Shown here: piece by piece, positions 44,148 through 54,211 of the stretch
Numbering within the stretch: the first letter of the stretch is position 1
How the letters are laid out: the number at the start of each line of letters is the position of its first letter
From: Streptosporangium lutulentum
Lineage (GTDB): Bacteria; Actinomycetota; Actinomycetes; Streptosporangiales; Streptosporangiaceae
Length of the DNA: 64,000 nt
Assembly (NCBI RefSeq): GCF_030811455.1
Contig: NZ_JAUSQU010000001.1
Coordinates: 8,370,001-8,434,000, forward strand
Direction of reading: 5' to 3'
Notes under the pieces: model-generated
What the model was told of the DNA's origin: nothing
Seen by the model: the letters and a program-made list of their open reading frames with translations, nothing else
Database searches by the model: none
Made by a program: the position numbers and the translations under genes

Positions 44148-45035
44148 TCATCCGGGTGGTAAGCGCGGCGATCGTTTGTCGGGCCCTTCCTGGAGGGACA
44201 TCACGGCGTCGGCGAAGGCCTCGGGGCATTCCAGAGGGGTGAAGTGGCCGACCCCGTCGACCGGCCGGAGCTCGACATCGCGGAAGAAGGCCGGCAGCCG
44301 GTCGGACCACTCCCGGGGGAAGAGCGGGTCGTGCTCGGGCCACACCACGACGGTCGGCGTGGCGATGCGATGTTCCGGGTCGGGCTGTCGCTCGGCGGCC
44401 GACGCGGCGACGGTCCCGGCGCCGGCGCGATACCAGGAGATGGACGCGGAGAACGCCCCCGGCTCCGCGTAGCCGCGGACCAGGTGGTCGATGCCGGGCT
44501 CGAAGTCCGGCCCTGACCAGTGCGACCAGAAGTACAGCAGGTAGTCACGGACGGCCTCGGGTCTGCCGTCGATCAGTTGCTCGACGAGCGTCAGCTGGTG
44601 GAACGCCTGGTACCAGAACTCGCGCTGCGCCCGCTCGCCGAACACGCGTTCGGCGACGCCCGGCAGGGGAGGAGACAGGGCCAGGCCGCAGATGAGGTCG
44701 GGACGTTCCGAAGCCACTCGCTGGGCGACCCGGCTTCCGACGTCGTACCCGCCCAGCACCGGCCGGTCGAGCCGGAGTTCCTCGATGAGACCGATGACGC
44801 TGCGCGCCTGCCCGGCGGCGCCGTACTGCTCCCGGGGGTCGGCGAGATGCTTGTCCGACTCGCCGAATCCGCGCAGGTCGGGTACAACGACCTGGCGCGT
44901 GGGCGCGAGCAGGGGGACCACGTGCCGGTAGTCGGTCCGGTCACCGGGCCACCCGTGGAGCAGTACGGCGGGCGGTCCGTCGCCGGTGACGTCGTAGCCG
45001 AGCTGGAATCCGTCCACCATCGAGGTTCTCGGCAT
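44148..45035 (-). CDS. Alpha/beta hydrolase, epoxide-hydrolase-like
   Basis: 295 residues from ATG 45035, with GGAGGGG three bases upstream; a longer frame to 45269 is rejected because it runs through the operon terminator. Oxyanion motif HGWPGDRTDYRHVV (HGxP), then VVVPDLRGFGESDK, and nucleophile elbow GGYDVGSRVAQRVA with Asp as nucleophile (GYDVGS). The catalytic His is in DGVGHFTPLECPE; the lid region has WYRAGAGTVA and LLYFWSHWSGPDF. These are the features of epoxide hydrolases and haloalkane dehalogenase relatives; Asp at the elbow favours epoxide hydrolase. Downstream of the operon but separated by a terminator. Confidence 0.85.
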   Translation of the reverse strand: MPRTSMVDGFQLGYDVTGDGPPAVLLHGWPGDRTDYRHVVPLLAPTRQVVVPDLRGFGESDKHLADPREQYGAAGQARSVIGLIEELRLDRPVLGGYDVGSRVAQRVASERPDLICGLALSPPLPGVAERVFGERAQREFWYQAFHQLTLVEQLIDGRPEAVRDYLLYFWSHWSGPDFEPGIDHLVRGYAEPGAFSASISWYRAGAGTVAASAAERQPDPEHRIATPTVVVWPEHDPLFPREWSDRLPAFFRDVELRPVDGVGHFTPLECPEAFADAVMSLQEGPDKRSPRLPPG

Positions 45036-45106
45036 CGCCCCTCCTTCACGGAACATCTCTCCGGGGGGAGCCTCTACGAGGTAGGTCTCCCCTGCGGGGA
45101 AGCCCC

Positions 45107-45250
45107 CTACGCCCTCACGCTCGGGATTCGTCGGTGCCGGAGCAGCACGACCCGGGAGTCGAACGTCCGTGACTCGGCGAGTTCGAGGCCGGCCCGGTGG
45201 CTCCGCTCCTGGAGGACCGGCTTGCCGCCTCGCGCCCGCGGGGTCGGGCC
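45107..45250 (-). pseudogene. Possible 3' fragment of an unrecognised gene
   Basis: A minus-strand frame without start codon ends in TAG at 45107. It reads GGKPVLQERSHRAGLELAES followed by RTFDSRVVLLRHRRIPSVRA; nearly all its codons end in G or C, as in true genes here. The frame is cut off by the operon terminator at 45260 and has no ribosome site. It may be the tail of a gene truncated by deletion. I cannot name the family. Low confidence. Confidence 0.3.
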
Positions 45251-45259
45251 GCGAGCGCC

Positions 45260-45300
45260 GGGAGGTCATGGCCGCCGCCCGCCGACGGCCATGACCTCCC
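45260..45300 (-). terminator. Perfect 14-bp hairpin ending the PixA-like operon
   Basis: GGGAGGTCATGGCC (45260-45273) pairs perfectly with GGCCATGACCTCCC (45287-45300), 13-base loop, 35 bases after the last operon stop. No T-run. Confidence 0.8.
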
Positions 45301-45335: not shown

Positions 45336-45884
45336 TCAGACGGGCATCACCCGCAGGGCGGGATAGCGGGCCGAGTTCAGGTACAGCTTGTCGGTGCCGT
45401 GTTCCTTCTCCAGCTCCAGGACGAACCGATAGCGGTAGAGCCCCGGCCGGGCGTCGCTCATCACCGCCCCGGCCCAGTAGTAGTAGACGGCGGTGTACTG
45501 GTCGCGCATCCGGTCGGGAGCGCCGTAGACCTTGAGCTCGGTCATGATCCGGCGTTCGGCGACGTCGTCCTCGTCGCCCTTCTCGATGTCGAGGAAGACC
45601 AGGTTGTTGATCTTCGGCATCGGAGGCCAGGTGCCGTCCGCACCGCGGTGCATGTCGATCGGGCGGATGATCCAGTTGATCACCTGACCCTGCTTGCAGG
45701 TGGTCTCCAGGTGGTCGGTGCCCTGCCCGACCCCGCCGATGCTGTTGTCCATCATGTAGAGGCAGCCGTCCAGGGACTTCGTCGCGGCGGCCCTCTCCAT
45801 GTCGACGAGGGTCACCACGTTCAGCTGGACGGAGTTGAGCTGGCCGCGATCGGCGAAGTCCGTGGCCGCGTATGCCTGGGTCAT
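45336..45884 (-). CDS. PixA/AidA-like inclusion-body family protein, paralogue 4
   Basis: 182 residues from ATG 45884, with AAGGAAGG upstream and a 4-base overlap (ATGA) with paralogue 3. N-terminal strand NSVQLNVVTLVDMERAA, then GCLYMMDNSIGGVGQGTDHL and QGQVINWIIRPIDMH: the pattern DN..G.G.GT..L..T...G..I.W is shared by all four paralogues and resembles the PixA/AidA family, known from inclusion bodies of Xenorhabdus and quorum-controlled proteins of Burkholderia/Ralstonia. The middle insert (KGDEDDVAERRIMTEL) is acidic. C-terminus GLYRYRFVLELEKEHGTDKL holds strands. No signal peptide, so cytosolic. Family call is my inference. Confidence 0.6.
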   Translation of the reverse strand: MTQAYAATDFADRGQLNSVQLNVVTLVDMERAAATKSLDGCLYMMDNSIGGVGQGTDHLETTCKQGQVINWIIRPIDMHRGADGTWPPMPKINNLVFLDIEKGDEDDVAERRIMTELKVYGAPDRMRDQYTAVYYYWAGAVMSDARPGLYRYRFVLELEKEHGTDKLYLNSARYPALRVMPV

Positions 45885-46348
45885 CGGCCTTCCTTTCCCT
45901 CGTTGGCGGGACCGGCCAGGGCCGGCCGGGCATTGGGGGTGAACGGCGTGCTGACGGTGCCGAGCAGGAACGAGAGCCGGTACGGGACCGGTTCGGTGAG
46001 GTCCTGCTTGACCTCGGCGGTCCAGAACACGATGTCGGTGCCGGGATACACCTTCTGCGTGGGCTCGGCGATCCGCGGGTCGATCTCGATGTCGCAGAGG
46101 GCCGCGTAGGTCTCGCACTCCAGCGGGATCACGTTCCACAGCAGGGTGTCGCCCTTGCGTACCCGGCTGTGCAACTCGGGGGTGCCGAAACCGGTGGATC
46201 CCGCGGCCCTGTTGGTGTCGTAGAAGTAGATGTTCTCGTCCAGGTTCTCCGACGCCAGCGCGGCCACGGGATCGACCACCGCGGTGATCGTCACGGGACG
46301 GGTGGGCCGGGCGGGCCGGCGTTCGGGCTGTTTGTTCCTCGGGGGCAT
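45881..46348 (-). CDS. PixA/AidA-like inclusion-body family protein, paralogue 3
   Basis: 155 residues from ATG 46348. A basic N-terminus (RNKQPERRPARPTRP) precedes the domain: VTITAVVDPVAALASENLDE, IYFYDTNRAAGSTGFGTPEL, VRKGDTLLWNVIPLECETYA, and C-terminal PGTDIVFWTAEVKQDLTEPV, YRLSFLLGTVSTPF. The shared pattern is GS.GFGT.EL...V..GD.L.W. It ends in a short acidic tail, and its TGA overlaps the next gene's ATG. This shortest copy shows the core fold best. Function unknown, but the four-gene set suggests a multi-subunit particle or layered assembly. Confidence 0.6.
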   Translation of the reverse strand: MPPRNKQPERRPARPTRPVTITAVVDPVAALASENLDENIYFYDTNRAAGSTGFGTPELHSRVRKGDTLLWNVIPLECETYAALCDIEIDPRIAEPTQKVYPGTDIVFWTAEVKQDLTEPVPYRLSFLLGTVSTPFTPNARPALAGPANEGKEGR

Positions 46349-46387
46349 GAGACTCCTCCGCTCGAGAGTGCTTCGGCTCGGATCGGG

Positions 46388-47170
46388 TCAGCCGGCGGCC
46401 GGGACGGGCGGGAGGGGGAGCGCGCCCAGTCCGGCGCCGGTGAACCCGTTGCGCTTTGGATCGTTGATGATTTTGAGGCTGGACTCGCAGGTCAGGTCCA
46501 CGGACTCCCAGACCAGCTCGTCGTTCCGCTCGATCAGCTCGTGCAGCTGGATGTGCATCGTGTACCTGTAGACCCCGGGCCGGCTCGTGTCCACGGTCGC
46601 GGCCCAGTACCAGCCGTCGTAGATCATGTCGGGCGACCCGTACTGGGCCGGGTACATGATCTTCTCGGTGACGGCCGGGCCGGTGATATCGGTGATCACC
46701 GGAGCCGGATAGTTGTACGCGCCGGGATCGCTCGTGGTCTTACCGGTGACGTCCAGCAGCTTGGCGTCGGTGAGGCCGCGCCCGCTGCCCGACTTGCGGG
46801 GGTGCTTGCCGACCTGCTTCTGCAGCCGCTTGAGACTGGCCTCGCTCATGCCGCCCTCGTCGCTGAGCGAGGCCAGCTCCTCCAGCGTCCGCCGGTCGTC
46901 GGCGCGCTCCTGCTCGGCCAGGTAGTTGCGCGGCACCGTCGGGGGGATCGACCCCAGCGCCGCGGGCAGCCAGTTCAGCACCTGCTCGGTCGCCTGCGAT
47001 CCGTCGAGGAAGTGGGTGCCGGGCACGATCGTCACCAGTTGCTCGGTGCCCACCCCGGCGGAGCCGAACAACTTCATGTTGTCGAACCAGTACGTGTTGC
47101 CCTCGAGCGATCGCGTCTGGAGCGCGTTCTCGACGTCGAAGAGCACGATGATCCCGTGTTGCTGGGCCAT
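46388..47170 (-). CDS. PixA/AidA-like inclusion-body family protein with insert, paralogue 2
   Basis: 260 residues from ATG 47170, with AAAGGCGG upstream. Core strands GIIVLFDVENALQTRSLEGN, TYWFDNMKLFGSAGVGTEQL and QATEQVLNWLPAAL match the other paralogues, then about 80 residues are inserted (YLAEQERADDRRTLEELASL, MSEASLKRLQKQVGKHPRKS) that look coiled and charged. The family part resumes with VITDITGPAVTEKIMYPAQY, YDGWYWAATVDTSRPGVYRY and ELVWESVDLTCESSLKI. The insert may be a binding or oligomer contact. It ends in a Pro/Gly-rich tail. 40 bases separate it from paralogue 3. Confidence 0.58.
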   Translation of the reverse strand: MAQQHGIIVLFDVENALQTRSLEGNTYWFDNMKLFGSAGVGTEQLVTIVPGTHFLDGSQATEQVLNWLPAALGSIPPTVPRNYLAEQERADDRRTLEELASLSDEGGMSEASLKRLQKQVGKHPRKSGSGRGLTDAKLLDVTGKTTSDPGAYNYPAPVITDITGPAVTEKIMYPAQYGSPDMIYDGWYWAATVDTSRPGVYRYTMHIQLHELIERNDELVWESVDLTCESSLKIINDPKRNGFTGAGLGALPLPPVPAAG

Positions 47171-47195
47171 GAAACCGCCTTTCGCAGAACGTGGC

Positions 47196-47684
47196 TCACA
47201 CGCGCAGCAGCGCGGGCGAGTCGATGTGCAGCACGCTGTTGGGTCCTTCGTGGAGCCTGAGGGAGAGCCGGTACCGGTACGGGACACCGGGGGTCATGTC
47301 GTAGGGCACGACGCCCTCCCACACCAGCAGGTCGTGGTTCTCGCGCCCGTTGGAGCCGATGGCGTCGACCCCCGGCCCGGGCACCGGAACGATGGAGGGC
47401 TCCGCCGGGTACGGCGGCCCGGTCTGGTCGGCCGGGGACGGGGCTGCCGCACCGGCCAGGAACTCGATGGCCTGGATCTCGACCGGGGTCTGTACGTCCA
47501 CGTGGATGGGGGTCCACTGGACGACCTGTCCCGGGGACACCATCGTGATGAGGTCGGGGGTTCCCTGGTGCTTGCTCCCCGCCGAGCTGTCGTCGACCAT
47601 CGAGAGGTTGCCGTTGTGCAGCGTCCGATCGGACAACGCCCCGACGGCGTCGACCATCACGACGATGCTGATTCTAGGTTTCAT
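47196..47684 (-). CDS. PixA/AidA-like inclusion-body family protein, paralogue 1
   Basis: 162 residues from ATG 47684, with GGGAGG six bases upstream; ATG at 47708 is upstream of that site and less likely. Core: RISIVVMVDAVGALSDRTLH, NLSMVDDSSAGSKHQGTPDL, VSPGQVVQWTPIHVDVQTPV. C-terminal strands NHDLLVWEGVVPYDMTPGVP and YRYRLSLRLHEGPNSVLHID end in PALLRV, close to paralogue 4 (ALRVMPV). The middle (GAAAPSPADQTGPPYPAEPS) is Pro-rich. First of the four after the adenylating enzyme, 48 bases downstream. Confidence 0.6.
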   Translation of the reverse strand: MKPRISIVVMVDAVGALSDRTLHNGNLSMVDDSSAGSKHQGTPDLITMVSPGQVVQWTPIHVDVQTPVEIQAIEFLAGAAAPSPADQTGPPYPAEPSIVPVPGPGVDAIGSNGRENHDLLVWEGVVPYDMTPGVPYRYRLSLRLHEGPNSVLHIDSPALLRV

Positions 47685-47732
47685 CGATCCTCCCTTGTCG
47701 GATGTCATTCGGGTGCGAGGGCCGCCACGTGC

Positions 47733-49274
47733 TCAGCCCCGGTCCCTGACCAGCGGCGTCTTGCCGACGGTGGTTTGTTCGATCTGTGGTGAGGAGCGCG
47801 GCACGAACGCCAGCCGGAAGCCGTATCCGGTCTGCTCGATGGCCGCCGCATTGGCCTCCCGGTCGTTGAAGAGCGACAGGGAGATCGGCAGCGCCTGGGT
47901 GAACAGCTGTCGCGTCCCGCTCGGGCCGAGGGCGTGCTCGACGGCCGCGGTGGTGCCCTCGGCGTCGTCCACCGCCACGAGCAGGGTGAGGGTCCGGTCC
48001 TCACGGTGGTTGTGGAACTGGACCTCGTGCGCGACCAGATCCAGGTCGACGCCGGTCATCGAGCGAAGCCGCTCGCGCAGGGCCGCGTAGGCCAGCGTCG
48101 CCGAATACTGGCTGTCGTTGAGGTGCAGCACGTCGGCGGTGCGCCCGGCGAACTCGAATCGCTCGGTGCGCGGCCCGGGGCCGTTCAGGGCCGAGCGGCG
48201 GATCATCCGATCGCCGAGTTTGAGCCGGAGCAGCGGCGTCTCGTCGGCGTGCAGCCGGGTGACGACCAGCTCGCCCTCCTCGCCTTCGGCGACGGCACGG
48301 CCGTGCTCGTCCACGATCTCCACCAGGTGCAGCCCCGGCACGGCGGAGAGCGCCGGCGAGTTGTGGTCGAGCTGGAGCCCGACGCACTCGGCCTGGGTCG
48401 CGGCGAAGTAGCTGAGGATCGACACGTTGGGGAAGAACGCCTGCAACTCGTCGCGCTTGCGCTGGGGCAGGGAGCCGCTGCCGTACATGGCGACCCGGAA
48501 GCTCGCCCTGGCCTGCGGGGACAGGCCCGCGCCCAGCTCGGGCAGGAGCGCGATGCCGGCGGTGATGCCCATCAGCGCCTTGTGGCCCGGGTAGGAGAAC
48601 ATGTGCTCCAGCACCGGCGCGCTCACCGGTCCCGCGCCGATGTAGTTGACCCCCGGGACGTGGGACAGGACGCCGCCGACCATGGTCCCGCTGCTCCACA
48701 TCTGGTAGTCGGCCAGGGTGGTGAACAGCCAGCGCGGCGCGGGACCGCGCAGGTAGCGGCCGAGCTGGTAGGCGCCCATGAACGCCCCGGAGATGCGGTA
48801 GGTGTCGCGCAGCTCCCGCAGGGAGTACACGATCTCCAGGGGCATGCCGTCACCGGTGCCGCCGCTGGCCACCACCTCGAACCCGCCGGAGTCGAGCGGC
48901 ACGACCATCCCGGCCCGCGCGCCCATGAACATGTCCCGCTGCACGGTCTTGTCCGAGAGAGGGATCCGCTCCCACTCGGACATGTCGGCGGGGGCGCTGC
49001 GGATCCCGAAGTAGTGCAGCCGCTCGCGCCACAGAGGGTTGAGCAGGGCGATGCCGACGAGCTGCTGGAGCCGGCGGAACACCAGCGCGTTCTGGAGGTC
49101 GAGCGGGGACTCGCAGTACGGGACTCCGGTGAGCCGCCCGCACTCCTCCAGCTTCCCCGCGAACGACGGCAGCCGGGTGACGTCGTCCACCGAGCGGACC
49201 CTCAGCTCCTCCTCGGGGATCAGCCGTGCCGCCAGCTCCGTCGAGGTGGCGACGTCCAAATCCATCATGGTCAT
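47733..49274 (-). CDS. PaaK-like ANL adenylating enzyme
   Basis: 513 residues from ATG 49274, overlapping the decarboxylase stop (ATGA), with GGGAG six bases upstream. The family is that of phenylacetate-CoA ligase-like enzymes: WERIPLSDKTVQRDMF (helix before P-loop), P-loop EVVASGGTGDGMPLEIVYS in place of SSGTTGxP, SYFAATQAECVGLQ (A5, Y-x-A-T-x-A-E), GEEGELVVTRLH, and PLLRLKLGDRMIRR (A7). The P-loop is degenerate (SGGTGDGMP), yet glycines remain. The C-terminal small domain runs from about residue 400. It probably activates a carboxylate as AMP ester or thioester, perhaps an amino acid linked to the adjacent decarboxylase. Substrate unknown. Confidence 0.72.
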   Translation of the reverse strand: MTMMDLDVATSTELAARLIPEEELRVRSVDDVTRLPSFAGKLEECGRLTGVPYCESPLDLQNALVFRRLQQLVGIALLNPLWRERLHYFGIRSAPADMSEWERIPLSDKTVQRDMFMGARAGMVVPLDSGGFEVVASGGTGDGMPLEIVYSLRELRDTYRISGAFMGAYQLGRYLRGPAPRWLFTTLADYQMWSSGTMVGGVLSHVPGVNYIGAGPVSAPVLEHMFSYPGHKALMGITAGIALLPELGAGLSPQARASFRVAMYGSGSLPQRKRDELQAFFPNVSILSYFAATQAECVGLQLDHNSPALSAVPGLHLVEIVDEHGRAVAEGEEGELVVTRLHADETPLLRLKLGDRMIRRSALNGPGPRTERFEFAGRTADVLHLNDSQYSATLAYAALRERLRSMTGVDLDLVAHEVQFHNHREDRTLTLLVAVDDAEGTTAAVEHALGPSGTRQLFTQALPISLSLFNDREANAAAIEQTGYGFRLAFVPRSSPQIEQTTVGKTPLVRDRG

Positions 49275-50845
49275 GAATGACTCCCGTTCCGCTGGTCGTG
49301 CCGGGCCGCGGCGCTCGCGCGCAGTACCCGTTGCCCGATGTCCCTGATCTCGGCGATGAGCATGGTCAGGTGGTCGGCGTCGATCAGGTGGTTCATCACC
49401 ACCACGCGCAGCGCCGCCACCCCGTCGATGTCGACCTTGGAGATGAAGAAGCGTCCGTCGTCCCGGATCCGGTTGCGTATCTCCAGTTGCAGCCGGTGTA
49501 CGGTCGCCGGGTCCAGGCCGTCCGGCCGGTACCGGAAGCACAGGATGTTGGACTCCGGTTCGTGCGCCACGGCGAAGTCCGGCTCGGCGGAGAGCATCTG
49601 GTACGCCTGCCGGGCCGTCGCGCACAGCCGGTCGATCTTCTGCTCGAACAGCGCCGGGCCGTAGACCGACCAGACCGCCCAGAGCGGCATGATCATCGGG
49701 CGTTTTGTGCACTCGAAGTTCTTGTCCGCGCTGTCATAGGCGCTGTAGATGTCCGGTTCCTCGTCGAACACGTAGCTGGCACGCTGGCGGAACGCACCGC
49801 GTGCCGCCGCGCCGTCGCGGTAGAAGAGCAGCGTGCACGGCGCCGGCATGAACAGCATCTTGTGGGCGTCCCAGGTCAGTGAGTCGGCCTGCTCGATGCC
49901 GCGCAGCTTGTCCCGGTGCCGGTCCGACAGCAGCAGGCTCGCCCCGTGCGCCCCGTCCACGTGGAGCCAGAGCCCGTACCGGCTCGCCACGTCCGCGAGC
50001 TCCTCCAGCGGGTCGAAGGCGCCCATCGACGTGGTCCCGGCCGACGCCACCAGGCAGAACAGCCGCAGGCCGCGCCGGCGCGCCTCGTCCAGTACCGGGC
50101 CGGCCAGATCGGGGCGGATCCGCCCGGCCCGGTCGACCGGGAGCCGGACGATCTGCCGTTCTCCGATGCCGAGCACCCCGGCCGCCCGGGTCACGCTGTA
50201 GTGGGCCTCCTCGCTGACCGCGATGGCAGGGAGGCCCGGCATGCCGCCGGCGCCGCGCGTCCAGATCTGCGGGAAGGCGCGGTTGCGGGCGGCCAGCAGC
50301 GCGGTCAGGTTGGCCAGGGAGCCCCCCGAGGTCGTCACCATGGCGAACCGGTCGCGGTCCCAGCCGATGAACCGGTTGAGCTCCTCGGCCATGAGCCGCT
50401 CGGCGACGTTGGGGAGCTGCCCGGCCTCGTAGAAGGAGGAGGGCTGGTTGACCACCGAGCCGACCAGGTCGATGAGGCCGGCCAGCGGCACCACGCCGGA
50501 GAACTGCCGTCCCATGTAGCCGGGTGAGTAGACCGGGATGCCGGTCCTCGTGTACAGGTCGACGATCTGGTTCACCCGGTCGGTGTCGAAGTCGGCGATG
50601 CGCTGCCGCTCCGGGGTCATCAGTCCTCGCGCGGCCTTCAGCAGCACCGACGGATCGAGGAGGTCAAGGCCCCGGACCGACCGGTCGCCCAGATACCTCG
50701 TCAGGCGGCTGACGATGTCCGCGGCGCCGTCGTGGAAACGTTCGGGGTCGAAGGCCGCGGTGAGGCCCGGCATGAGCGGTCGGGAGCCTTCGGCGGTGGT
50801 CGGCTCTGGAAAGGAATTCTGGACATCGGAAATCGAACTCGTCAT
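49271..50845 (-). CDS. PLP-dependent group II amino acid decarboxylase
   Basis: 524 residues from ATG 50845, with GGAG eight bases upstream; longer starts (ATG 50884) fall in the inverted repeat arm. Family features: YSPGYMGRQFSGVVPLAGLI, ATTSGG-like VTTSGGSLANLTALLAARNR, EEAHYSVTRAAGVLGIGERQ, AGTTSMGAFDPLEELADVA, HVDGAHGASLLLS (Asp binds pyridine N) and the PLP lysine in TWDAHKMLFMPAPCTLLFYR. This is the fold of aromatic-L-amino-acid, glutamate and diaminobutyrate decarboxylases; substrate specificity cannot be read. It would make an amine from an amino acid. First gene of the operon, coupled to the adenylating enzyme. Confidence 0.9.
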   Translation of the reverse strand: MTSSISDVQNSFPEPTTAEGSRPLMPGLTAAFDPERFHDGAADIVSRLTRYLGDRSVRGLDLLDPSVLLKAARGLMTPERQRIADFDTDRVNQIVDLYTRTGIPVYSPGYMGRQFSGVVPLAGLIDLVGSVVNQPSSFYEAGQLPNVAERLMAEELNRFIGWDRDRFAMVTTSGGSLANLTALLAARNRAFPQIWTRGAGGMPGLPAIAVSEEAHYSVTRAAGVLGIGERQIVRLPVDRAGRIRPDLAGPVLDEARRRGLRLFCLVASAGTTSMGAFDPLEELADVASRYGLWLHVDGAHGASLLLSDRHRDKLRGIEQADSLTWDAHKMLFMPAPCTLLFYRDGAAARGAFRQRASYVFDEEPDIYSAYDSADKNFECTKRPMIMPLWAVWSVYGPALFEQKIDRLCATARQAYQMLSAEPDFAVAHEPESNILCFRYRPDGLDPATVHRLQLEIRNRIRDDGRFFISKVDIDGVAALRVVVMNHLIDADHLTMLIAEIRDIGQRVLRASAAARHDQRNGSHS

Positions 50846-50881
50846 GGAGGAGACTCCAAATGATCCGGCGTCGAGAACGCC

Positions 50882-50943: not shown

Positions 50944-51843
50944 AGGGTTGTCGCGAATAAATGCGTGATCTGCGGTGATGAGTGGAGCGAGAAAGAGATC
51001 CCCGGCATTCGGGGACACGAGGCGGCATTCGTGCTGTCGCCGAACCGTTCTGGTGGTTTGGAACGGTCCAGCTTGGGAGGGGATGTCGATCGGCGATGGG
51101 GGGAGGATGGCACGAGAGGGCCTCGCTGCCCCCTGTTCACGCCCTGTTCAAGCAGTTCGGATCAGTCCGGCGACGATGTCGCCGACGATCAGGGTCTGGA
51201 GACGACCCGTCGTGGATGAATCGCGATTAATGCGATCTGAATTTCACCCGCCTTATGCGTTGGCATGCCCGTCATGTAAGCGACCTAATCATTGATTACG
51301 GGAGTGACGCAAGACCTCGGATGCAGGTGGAGTGGCAGATTCCGGCCACAGTTACTTGCGCACCGCGATTAAGGCGGGGAGATGTTCGACGAATCTCAGT
51401 TGTTTTGGGGCTTATGGGCCTTTGTCGTGAATTTTGATCAAACTCCGCATTCTGGGTCGCCCCGGCGGGCGACTCTCTTGGTGGGCGTTATTTAATATGC
51501 TTATATTTGCTTAAATATGGTAGATAAGGCGATGTGTCGTCTTTCGTGGGGTGCCGACGCTGAAAGCGGGCCTCTCCACCGTTTTGTGGAGGTGTCGGGT
51601 TGGGTGGCGTCGCTTCCGGATCGGCCGCCCCGGCCGGCGGGAGATCGTCGGTGACGCCGGGCCGGCGGAGGGCGGGCCTTCGCGTCCGGGACGGCCGGGC
51701 CCGCGGACCCGGGACCGCCCCGGAACGTCTTCGCGGACTCCGAGTGATCACGTGGTGGCCGTCTCCCCGTGCCTCGTCCGGGAAGGTCGCGAAGCGTCAC
51801 CGGAGCATGAGGGAGCGGGCATCCTGAACTGTGGTGATATGCG
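50944..51843. other. Gene-free stretch with AT-rich blocks
   Basis: 900 bases with no supportable gene. 51225-51540 is clearly lower in GC than the rest; TTTAATATGCTTATATTTGC and following bases at 51491-51520 include the inverted repeat ATATTT-GCTT-AAATAT (51503-51518). Short frames here do not look coding. CGCGATTAA occurs twice (51221 and 51366). It may be a promoter-rich region or relic of lost DNA. Confidence 0.45.
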
Positions 51844-51937: not shown

Positions 51938-52948
51938 ATGCGACACCCCCGCACCCGCCGTTTCCCGGCGACGCTGAAAGCGACCGCGCTGACGACCTCC
52001 ATCCTGCTGGGCGGTACCGCCTGCGGTCCGGCCACCACCTCGGCCGCCGGCCACGCGATCCCGCGAACCGGGACGGCCGGGATCGGGATGACGAACGGGC
52101 AGGTGGTCCTTGACGACCTCCGGACGCCGGCGCCCGGCGAGGCCGAGGCCCGCCGGCGGCTGCGCGCGCTGGAGACGTCCTACAAGGGCCGCATCGGTGT
52201 GTACGCCCTCGACACGGCCACCGGAAAGACGATCACGTACCGGTCGGGCGAACGCTTCCCGCTGCTGTCCACCTTCAAGGCCTCGGCGGCCGCCGCGGTG
52301 CTGCACAAGGCACGCACGTCGGACCCGGGGCTGATGGACAGGGTCATCCACTGGAAGCGGAGCGAGGTGAAGGCGAACTCGCCGGTCACCGAGAAGCACG
52401 TGGAGGACGGGCTGACCGTCGCCCGGCTGTGCGAGGCGGCCATCACCCAGAGCGACAACACCGCGGGCAACATGCTGCTGAAGCAGATCGGCGGACCAGC
52501 GGGGCTGACCCGATACCTCCGCACGTTGAAGGACCCGGTCTCGCACCTGGACCGCTGGGAGACCGAGCTCAACGACTGGACCCCCAAGGAGAGGCGGGAC
52601 ACCACCACCCCCGCGGCCATGGGCCGGAACCTGCACAGGCTCACGGTCGGCACCGCGCTCGACGCCAAGGACCGGGCGCGGCTGAACGGCTGGCTGATCG
52701 CGAACAAGACCGGCGGCGAGCGCATCCGCGCCGGGCTGCCCAAGACCTGGATCGTCGGCGACAAAACCGGCACCACCTCGTTCTACGGGGCGGCCAACGA
52801 CATCGCCGTCGTCTGGCCGGCCAAGGGCGCCGCACCTCTGATCATGTCCATCTACACCAACCGGCGGGCCGCCGGCGCCCTGAACGACAACAAGGTCATC
52901 GCCGACACCGCCGCCATCCTCGCGCGGGGCCTCGGCAGGCTTTCCTGA
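51938..52948 (+). CDS. Class A beta-lactamase (lipoprotein-type signal)
   Basis: 336 residues from ATG 51938, with GAGGACAGG upstream. Signal with lipobox LLGGTAC, so probably membrane-anchored outside the cell. Class A motifs: active-site STFK in FPLLSTFKASAAAAV, SDN in ITQSDNTAGNMLL, Glu in WETELNDWTPKERRDTTTPA (omega loop), KTG in VGDKTGTTSFYGAANDIAVV. All catalytic residues are intact, so it should hydrolyse beta-lactams. A perfect operator lies upstream, which suggests induced or repressed expression. Convergent with ROK gene, 40 bases apart. Confidence 0.95.
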   Translation: MRHPRTRRFPATLKATALTTSILLGGTACGPATTSAAGHAIPRTGTAGIGMTNGQVVLDDLRTPAPGEAEARRRLRALETSYKGRIGVYALDTATGKTITYRSGERFPLLSTFKASAAAAVLHKARTSDPGLMDRVIHWKRSEVKANSPVTEKHVEDGLTVARLCEAAITQSDNTAGNMLLKQIGGPAGLTRYLRTLKDPVSHLDRWETELNDWTPKERRDTTTPAAMGRNLHRLTVGTALDAKDRARLNGWLIANKTGGERIRAGLPKTWIVGDKTGTTSFYGAANDIAVVWPAKGAAPLIMSIYTNRRAAGALNDNKVIADTAAILARGLGRLS

Positions 52949-52988: not shown

Positions 52989-54131
52989 TCAGCTCAGTAC
53001 GGTGTCCAGGAGCAGGGACCCGGCGCCGAGCAGTGCCGCGTCCGGGCCCGAGCGTGTGACGGAGATCTCCAGGTCGCGGGTGGCCAGGGGCAGGCAGCGT
53101 TCGTAGACGGCGCCGCGGATCGCCGAGATCAGTGGTTCGGCGGTGGACAGACTGCCGCCGACCACGATGGCGTCGGGGTTGAGGAAGTTGACCAGGACGG
53201 TGAGCACCTCGCCGATGAGACGCCCCGCGTTTCTGACCAGGGCGGTGGCCTCGGGCACCCCGTCGTCGACGAGGGCGACGAGTTCGGCGGGCCGCCGTAC
53301 GGCGATGCCCTGCTCGGCCAGGGCGCCCATCAGCGCGGCGCCGCTCGCGTAGGCCTCCAGGCAGTCGGGGTGGCCGCAGGAACACATGACGGAGGAGTCG
53401 GTCCTGACCCGGACGTGGCTGATGTCGCCGGCCGCGCCGCGCCCCCGGTGCAGGCGGCCGTCGACGATGACCCCGCATCCGATGCCGCTGCCGGCCTTCA
53501 GCACCATGAGGTTGTCGCAGCCGGGCCACGCGCGTGCCTCGCCGACGGCCAGGAGGTTGGCGTCGTTCTCGACGAGCACCGGCAGGTCGTAGCGGGCGCC
53601 GAGATACTCGGCGACGGGGAAGTTGTTCCAGCCGGGCATGCGCGAGGGGGACACCACGCGACCGCTGGCGGGGTCCACGGGACCGGGGATGCCGGTGCCG
53701 ACCCCGCGAAGGGGGGCGCCGGGTGGGCCGTGGGCCAGGAGCAGCTCGTCGAACGAGGCCGCCATCCAGTCGAGGGTCGCCTCGGGGCCCAGCGCGATGT
53801 CGCAGGGGCGTTCCTCGATGATCAGCGGGGTGCCGTTGAGGTCGAGCAGGCCCAGCCGGGCGTGGTGCGCCCCGAGGTCGGCCACCGCGAGCAGTCCGGA
53901 GGTGGGGCTGATCCGCAGCCGCCGTGGCCGCCGCCCGCCACGTGAGGTGCCCGACCCCTCCTCGACCAGCAGGCCGGTGTCGATCAGTTCCTCGACCCGC
54001 AGGGACACACTCGACGCCGCCAGGCCCGTCAGCCGGGCCAGCTCGGCGCGCGACTCGGCGTGGCCGGTGGCGATGAGGCGCAGAAGATCGCCCTGTGCCC
54101 CCCGCACGGACAGCCTCTCTTTGCCTGACAT
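52989..54131 (-). CDS. ROK-family transcriptional regulator
   Basis: 380 residues from ATG 54131; 14 codons further up are also open. N-terminal winged helix (LRLIATGHAESRAELARLTG, AASSVSLRVEELIDTGLLVE), then ROK domain: VGTGIPGPVDPASGRVVSPS, PVLVENDANLLAVGEARAWP, GSGIGCGVIVDGRLHRGRGA, and the zinc motif CSCGHPDCLEAYASG with its three Cys. Glucokinase-like signature intact, yet it acts as a repressor bound to sugar or similar ligand. Divergent from the ABC importer operon at 54271, the likely target. A palindrome at 54212 lies between. Confidence 0.92.
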   Translation of the reverse strand: MSGKERLSVRGAQGDLLRLIATGHAESRAELARLTGLAASSVSLRVEELIDTGLLVEEGSGTSRGGRRPRRLRISPTSGLLAVADLGAHHARLGLLDLNGTPLIIEERPCDIALGPEATLDWMAASFDELLLAHGPPGAPLRGVGTGIPGPVDPASGRVVSPSRMPGWNNFPVAEYLGARYDLPVLVENDANLLAVGEARAWPGCDNLMVLKAGSGIGCGVIVDGRLHRGRGAAGDISHVRVRTDSSVMCSCGHPDCLEAYASGAALMGALAEQGIAVRRPAELVALVDDGVPEATALVRNAGRLIGEVLTVLVNFLNPDAIVVGGSLSTAEPLISAIRGAVYERCLPLATRDLEISVTRSGPDAALLGAGSLLLDTVLS

Positions 54132-54211
54132 GGACAGAGGAATACCACGTCTGTACTTACTACAGCAATCCATTGACTTACAGCGGAATCATCCATTACC
54201 TTCCGGTTTGT

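Follow-up and report, generated by a model that had tools for sequence, protein, structure and literature searches.

The closest described relatives of the system treated here are small sets of paralogous proteins of the MakC/MakD and PixA/AidA type. The system itself is a six-gene cassette on the minus strand of Streptosporangium lutulentum DNA, at positions 45336-50845 of a 64,000-nucleotide stretch that is called the window below. It encodes a decarboxylase (dec), an adenylate-forming ligase (lig) and four paralogues, for which the names pxA to pxD (genes 3-6) are coined in this analysis. In the mak operon of Vibrio cholerae, MakC and MakD are two paralogues heading an operon that constitutes a genomic island (PMC11484084). 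Both proteins are cytosolic; each crystallises as a homodimer formed along an equivalent sheet edge, and the two are predicted to pair as a heterodimer by the same interface (PMC11484084). When makC and makD are deleted together, both the expression of MakB and the secretion of MakA are impaired (PMC11484084). One source describes PixA proteins as inclusion-body proteins and Bnr1 as a dimer (PMC9060813). AidA, Bnr1 and the mak operon are all reported to be under quorum-sensing control (PMC9060813, PMC11484084).

The four px proteins resemble both groups. MakC and MakD are the best fold matches of pxB and the sole significant matches of the px profiles among solved proteins, and the PixA/AidA proteins (PF12306; 4lzk, 4pib) share the pxB fold and also come in small paralogue sets, such as the two-gene aidA-BCAS0292 operon (PMC9060813). 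Unlike the cassette, the mak operon has two such genes rather than four and carries them with a three-part pore-forming toxin rather than with enzymes; Pfam and NCBIfam reveal no MakA/B/E-type toxin among the six genes, the flanks having been compared by BLAST clustering. Likewise, the passages cited on PixA/AidA describe no decarboxylase-ligase pair with these proteins (PMC9060813).

Other known system classes fit no better. No encapsulin or microcompartment shell family was matched among the six proteins in Pfam and NCBIfam at E up to 1. PADLOC gave a weak SspA match for dec (0.00096) and no match for the other five proteins at E up to 0.01, and a known anti-phage defence system was rejected on this result. 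The gene set is not described in the open-licence literature searched, and an earlier description elsewhere is possible. The parts belong to known families, and the whole system matches no known kind found. The reading favoured here, and held tentatively, is that of a self-contained, horizontally spread six-gene cassette in which an enzyme pair is accompanied by one four-subunit cytosolic assembly of PixA fold, built around the enzymes or their product.

Conservation and spread of the cassette

The original prediction, made from the window's letters and open reading frames (ORFs), described six minus-strand genes with short gaps or 4-base overlaps, and this layout is exact at 45336-50845. The first gene, dec (49271-50845; P0001), encodes a group II pyridoxal-5'-phosphate (PLP)-dependent amino acid decarboxylase of 524 residues, and the second, lig (47733-49274; P0002), a divergent PaaK-like adenylate-forming ligase of 513 residues whose start codon overlaps the end of dec by 4 bases. 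Three of the paralogues that follow are short PixA/MakCD-type proteins: pxA (47196-47684; P0003) with 162 residues, pxC (45881-46348; P0005) with 155 and pxD (45336-45884; P0006) with 182, the last overlapping pxC by 4 bases. The longest, pxB (46388-47170; P0004), has 260 residues, a PixA/MakCD fold, a long insertion and a conserved C-terminal tail. Spacing along the operon is -4, 48, 25, 39 and -4 bases.

A scan of one genome per species, covering 84,980 species and requiring one of two exact seven-residue ligase patterns, returned 72 loci. This number is a lower bound, and a ligase is present in every locus by construction (in L107, in part). The complete set in the identical order dec-lig-pxA-pxB-pxC-pxD occurs in 71 of them, while the remaining locus is cut by a contig edge inside the ligase. 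Counted as present among the 71 are three damaged genes: dec in L085, cut by the contig start, and pxA in L071 and pxB in L106, each split over two frames. The genes are thus kept together elsewhere, and far beyond actinomycetes.

Forty-nine of the 71 loci are actinobacterial and 22 are not. By their record titles, the latter come from Alpha-, Beta- and Gammaproteobacteria, Bacteroidota, Granulicella (Acidobacteriota), one Chloroflexi metagenome-assembled genome (MAG) and one Aminicenantes MAG. The cassette thereby spans Actinomycetota, Pseudomonadota, Bacteroidota, Acidobacteriota, Chloroflexi and Aminicenantes, an assignment that we take from record titles and general knowledge, with Andreprevotia and Granulicella looked up. 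The lowest ligase identity to the window among the scanned loci is about 48%.

A separate search with dec in the window's genus and family identified 12 orthologous loci in 60 genomes, namely its own, those of 10 of 15 others in the genus, and one from another genus. All 12 carry the complete set in the same order. In the flanks compared, which extend about 7 kb to either side (in the window, 5.5 kb downstream), no ORF family is common to more than five of them. Several of the 72 scanned loci come from the same genomes as these 12, so the two sets are not additive.

Co-occurrence was followed in 297 genomes of the family. The ligase profile matches 47 of them at E <=0.001; in 26 the match is full-length (E <=1.1e-249), and in 21 it is short and weak. 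The pxC profile matches exactly the 26 genomes with a full-length ligase, with three or four px matches in each. All four px matches in the window's own genome lie inside the operon, and each of 12 genomes from other lineages has its px matches, three or four in number, within about 2 kb of each other.

Across 71 sequences (70 loci plus the window; L085 was left out of the matrices), pairwise distances are correlated between the six proteins, with coefficients of 0.86-0.94. When 92 px proteins from 23 of the 71 loci are placed in one tree, each class forms a single clade (23/23, support 0.94-1.00), and the four-way split is therefore older than the spread of the cassette. The alignments, each including the window protein, cover 37 of the 71 loci (A5, A8), 36 (A4), 34 (A6) and 29 (A7). 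In the dec-lig tree, Granulicella falls among Alphaproteobacteria and the Aminicenantes MAG beside a Pseudomonadales MAG, placements that suggest that the unit moved as a whole. In 24 of the 25 loci listed, the G+C of the cassette differs from that of the flanks by no more than 0.03; in L085, where little flanking sequence is available, the difference is 0.07. Because composition follows the surroundings, the transfers are not recent; recently acquired foreign DNA was rejected on the same grounds, and older horizontal transfer is proposed. The cassette is a discrete, transferable, co-evolving unit.

Rhizobia from soybean and Sesbania nodules also carry copies on plasmids, and in two such plasmid records lig and the four px genes are annotated as hypothetical proteins. 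A further entry in the plasmid collection, NZ_LT559118.1 from Nonomuraea gerenzanensis, is 11.85 Mb long and is presumably a chromosome filed as a plasmid. A search of 50,697 phage records gave no cassette match, and no relative was found among 21 pattern hits in viral contigs; a phage-borne module was rejected on these results.

The enzyme pair and the four paralogues

The original prediction of a decarboxylase and a PaaK-like enzyme is borne out by Pfam, profile and model evidence. For dec, the match to Pfam Pyridoxal_deC is strong (E 1.3e-55, 189.1 bits, cut-off 27), and the closest solved structures are glutamate decarboxylases (GADs) 1 and 2, GADL1 and cysteine sulfinic acid decarboxylase (CSAD). 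Residues H215, D297, K329 and R480 are kept in at least 97% of 72 sequences and align with GAD1. By analogy with work on GAD, we take them to be cofactor and substrate residues, K329 being the PLP-binding lysine. Clear homology and catalytic residues thus link dec to the group II enzymes GAD67, GADL1, CSAD, PanP and DABA (2,4-diaminobutyrate) decarboxylase; unlike them, it reaches no NCBIfam equivalog cut-off. The segment GYMGRQFS marks this group, and its R113, kept in at least 97% of the 72 sequences, faces a glutamine in GAD1. Since this aligned pocket segment differs, the substrate cannot be transferred, and assignment from GAD, CSAD or GADL1 was dropped.

The ligase is a very divergent enzyme of predicted PaaK-like, adenylate-forming (ANL) type. 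Its match to Pfam AMP-binding (0.0018, 17.6 bits) is under the cut-off of 29.9, while its profile matches the putative acyl-CoA ligase 4r1l (BT_0428) at 9.7e-13. An AlphaFold2 model with a mean predicted local distance difference test (pLDDT) score of 86.6 matches PaaK1 (2y27) in Foldseek at E 3.4e-24. ASGGT, YFAATQAE, GDR and K505 are kept in at least 97% of the 72 sequences; these we take to be the adenylation motifs of ANL enzymes. In these motifs, and in fold over most of the model, lig resembles PaaK1, BT_0428, NatL2 (6tm4), AjiA1 (6wuq) and ClxA (9s3l). It differs from them in its low identity (14-18% in fold alignments) and its length, 513 residues against about 400-440.

A pattern shared by four otherwise divergent proteins had been noticed in the window, and it holds: 13 columns are invariant across 12 paralogues from three loci, among them pxA D31, G36, G41, L45, G52 and W57. 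That the four belong to one family is supported by the px profiles and by NCBIfam NF049870 (MakCD), which all four match at 35.3-53.4 bits, with E-values of 1.3e-9 (pxA), 1e-8 (pxB), 2.5e-14 (pxC) and 1.5e-13 (pxD), that is, 1e-8 to 2.5e-14. The curated cut-off of 110 bits is not reached by any of the four window proteins, and no match above it occurs anywhere in the window's own genome. The same model matches all 38 pxD members scanned.

Profiles built from relatives are significant against exactly two solved proteins, 8rqy and 6tct (E <= 4.4e-7). The entry 6tct carries the name MakD, and 8rqy is MakC by elimination, given the title of the MakC/MakD paper, its single chain and the identity of 6tct. 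The pxA profile matches 8rqy at 1.6e-11 and 6tct at 3.4e-11. Against 8rqy, pxB reaches 2.5e-8 and pxD 6e-9 as profiles, and pxC reaches 2.7e-10 as a single sequence and 8.7e-21 as a profile.

The predicted structure of pxB (mean pLDDT 80.2) matches MakD, MakC, Burkholderia PixA (4lzk, 4pib) and an uncharacterised Chitinophaga protein in Foldseek, all at E < 0.001. The nearest structures reported for MakC and MakD are the same PixA and Chitinophaga entries (PMC11484084). Over the best chains of these four, the template-modelling (TM) score is 0.50-0.71 by target and 0.35-0.40 by query, the low query-side values being due to the long insertion in pxB. The likeness to PixA/AidA originally proposed therefore stands by fold, the pxB model matching 4lzk at E 4.5e-5 with probability 1.00 and TM 0.60 by target and 0.39 by query. 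In sequence it is not exact: the px proteins are nearer MakC/MakD, and the suggested search against PF12306 matched none of the four at E up to 1, with one of 30 pxC members matching at 0.11. The pxB model also matches SO1698 (3njm) at E 9e-4, which reflects a fold in common; self-cleavage of the SO1698 type was considered and set aside, and it appeared in none of the literature matches listed (best 5 of 11,034). The four are all PixA/MakCD-type proteins, pxB by predicted fold and the other three by profile kinship. Both unrelated folds among the paralogues and separation of the genes elsewhere, which had been named as evidence against the prediction, were looked for, and neither occurred.

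The C-terminal tail of pxB is encoded on the minus strand near 46388-46450 and has lower model confidence. N241 and F243 are kept in at least 97% of the 72 sequences, and the tail, in which LP follows them, is conserved across phyla. Such a tail could be a docking segment.

Accessory genes and flanking elements

Several loci carry additional genes beside or within the cassette. A class I aminotransferase gene lies between lig and pxA in three of the 72 loci, from two phyla: a betaproteobacterium (L080, 10570-11733), the Aminicenantes MAG (L081, 5021-6205) and a Pseudomonadales MAG (L083, 10554-11756). A gene of isochorismatase fold occurs within 700 bases in 13 of the 72, on either side and either strand, one member being confirmed by Pfam. 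In proteobacteria this gene, a predicted cysteine hydrolase, sits close downstream of pxD (L080, 14196-14741; L087, L088, L089, L101, L105; plasmid loci L113 and L114), and three Nonomuraea and one Actinacidiphila carry it on the other strand. Both Tenacibaculum loci (L098, L102) have a second dec-lig pair directly before the cassette, 46-48% identical, and the extra ligase lacks the exact SYFAAT motif. These three variants support a metabolic role.

Other neighbours are confined to particular lineages. A hydrolase gene of metallo-beta-lactamase fold lies 3' of the cassette in several Streptosporangium and Sphaerisporangium (L025, 12776-13534; L036, L038, L042, L043, L104). Among flank families found in at least three genera, the widest are a sensor-kinase-like ORF (13 loci), an isochorismatase-like ORF (12) and a response-regulator-like ORF (12), the labels of unscanned ORFs being read from translations. 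The sensor-kinase-like and response-regulator-like ORFs are mainly from Streptomyces and lie just 3' of pxD on the opposite strand in five Streptomyces loci, L056, L062, L063, L066 and L067; there they might act as a local regulator or be neighbours by chance. In the window, the neighbours are an alpha/beta hydrolase, a class A beta-lactamase-like protein and a ROK-family regulator (44148-45269, 51938-52948 and 52989-54173), and none of them recurs next to the cassette in the other 11 of the 12 family loci.

The strong hairpin first noticed at 45260 is present downstream of pxD as a terminator-like element with an 18-bp stem (45260-45300, minus strand). Each of the 12 loci examined has a strong hairpin after its last gene, the sequence differing in L034 and L035. 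An inverted repeat had also been noted at the operon head. A small palindrome, GGAGACTCC, does overlie the ribosome-binding site there (50849-50857) and is kept partially in relatives; it may be the repeat originally meant. Further upstream, about 213-226 bases before dec, lies a near-palindrome with the minus-strand sequence YTGGAYCGTTCCAA (51058-51071, no strand assigned). In the 12-locus upstream alignment it appears slightly altered in the 11 loci of the window's genus and is not seen in L035; it is a possible regulatory site. In one relative (L031, genome G004), a stop codon cuts dec six codons short, and the overlap with the lig start is lost.

A proposed assembly, its rivals and its meaning

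In the mechanism proposed, dec would decarboxylate an amino acid to an amine or omega-amino acid, and lig would activate a carboxylic acid as an adenylate for transfer to an acceptor, which may be an amine, coenzyme A or a protein. Both steps follow from knowledge of the families together with the conserved residues. By analogy with their relatives, pxA to pxD may be four fixed, non-interchangeable subunits of one cytosolic assembly, which would scaffold, enclose or organise the enzyme pair or hold its product. The idea of an assembly derives from the fixed set of four, the conserved pxB tail and the reports on MakC/MakD and PixA relatives. The original prediction, partly supported here, likewise spoke of a self-assembling particle or storage body, with a small amine or acid as its putative cargo. 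We infer that the enzymes are active and serve one pathway, and that the px proteins assemble with one another and with the enzymes. A bolder form of this reading, which we consider doubtful, is a new class of proteinaceous enzyme body, in which four obligate subunits of PixA/MakCD fold would assemble into a single hetero-oligomer that scaffolds or encloses a decarboxylase-adenylase pair, with the unit inherited and transferred whole across six phyla.

Several points weigh against this proposal. To our knowledge, proteins of PixA fold have no established molecular function, and the assembly is borrowed from relatives of low sequence similarity. The one px protein modelled, pxB, reaches a TM score to MakD of 0.71 by target and 0.37 by query. 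A fixed gene order may also come from dosage or co-transfer. The distance correlations drop to 0.63-0.88 among 1702 divergent pairs, and shared ancestry explains part of them. A scan based on the ligase can find ligase-bearing loci only, and the set is rare: in a phylum-wide sample of Actinomycetota, a ligase or px protein occurs only in the window's own genome (1 of 396). In vivo cross-linking, moreover, was strong for MakC and slight for MakD (PMC11484084).

The main rival holds that the operon makes a small molecule, such as a signal, a defensive compound or something siderophore-like, and that the px proteins, each separate and soluble, serve to bind it, store it or give protection against it and form no joint particle. 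This possibility is a serious one, if somewhat less probable than a common assembly, for the enzyme pair keeps its catalytic residues, the aminotransferase and isochorismatase-fold genes described above are metabolic add-ons, and the quorum-sensing control reported for AidA, Bnr1 and the mak operon points the same way. However, if the four bound independently, some lineages should have lost or duplicated one or more of them, whereas the four paralogues are always there, in fixed order and in separate clades. The px proteins might instead act as MakC and MakD do, as accessory proteins that steer the expression or export of an operon product. That would agree with the profile matches of all four, significant for MakC and MakD only among solved proteins, with the effect of the makC and makD deletion on MakB and MakA, and with an ABC-ATPase-like (ATP-binding cassette) flank ORF in eight of the 72 loci and one resembling the major facilitator superfamily in four, two of these four directly upstream (labels read from translations). 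The absence of a MakA/B/E-type toxin from the six genes, the small number and varying distances of transporter-like ORFs, and NF049870 matches that stay below the cut-off make this an unlikely account.

Two further explanations carry still less weight. The px proteins could be substrates, if lig attaches a product of decarboxylation to them or to the C-terminal pxB tail. The conservation of that tail across phyla would suit such a role, but it would equally well suit a docking segment, and the nearest enzymes by fold use small acids (phenylacetate, salicylate and aminohydroxybenzoate, by entry titles). No enzyme of this ligase family is known to us to act on proteins, and coupling to px is very unlikely. 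As for an ordinary operon whose six genes stand together by chance, the decarboxylase family is indeed common, with matches in 52 of 60 related genomes. Yet the order is fixed across phyla amid differing flanks and co-occurrence in the family sample is perfect, leaving chance a close to negligible prospect; it was rejected on the 71 of 72 loci that conserve the order and the 26 of 26 co-occurrences in 297 genomes.

An exact order that runs from Streptosporangium to Tenacibaculum, Bradyrhizobium and Granulicella amid changing surroundings indicates a function that needs all six parts, and it points to a molecular machine or pathway that is yet to be described. Were the enzymes and the px proteins to work together, the role of PixA, AidA and MakC/MakD would become directly testable in laboratory actinomycetes or Bacteroidota that carry the set. 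Should the cassette prove to encode an enzyme body, the PixA/AidA/MakCD fold would gain a first general role, that of organising co-encoded cargo.

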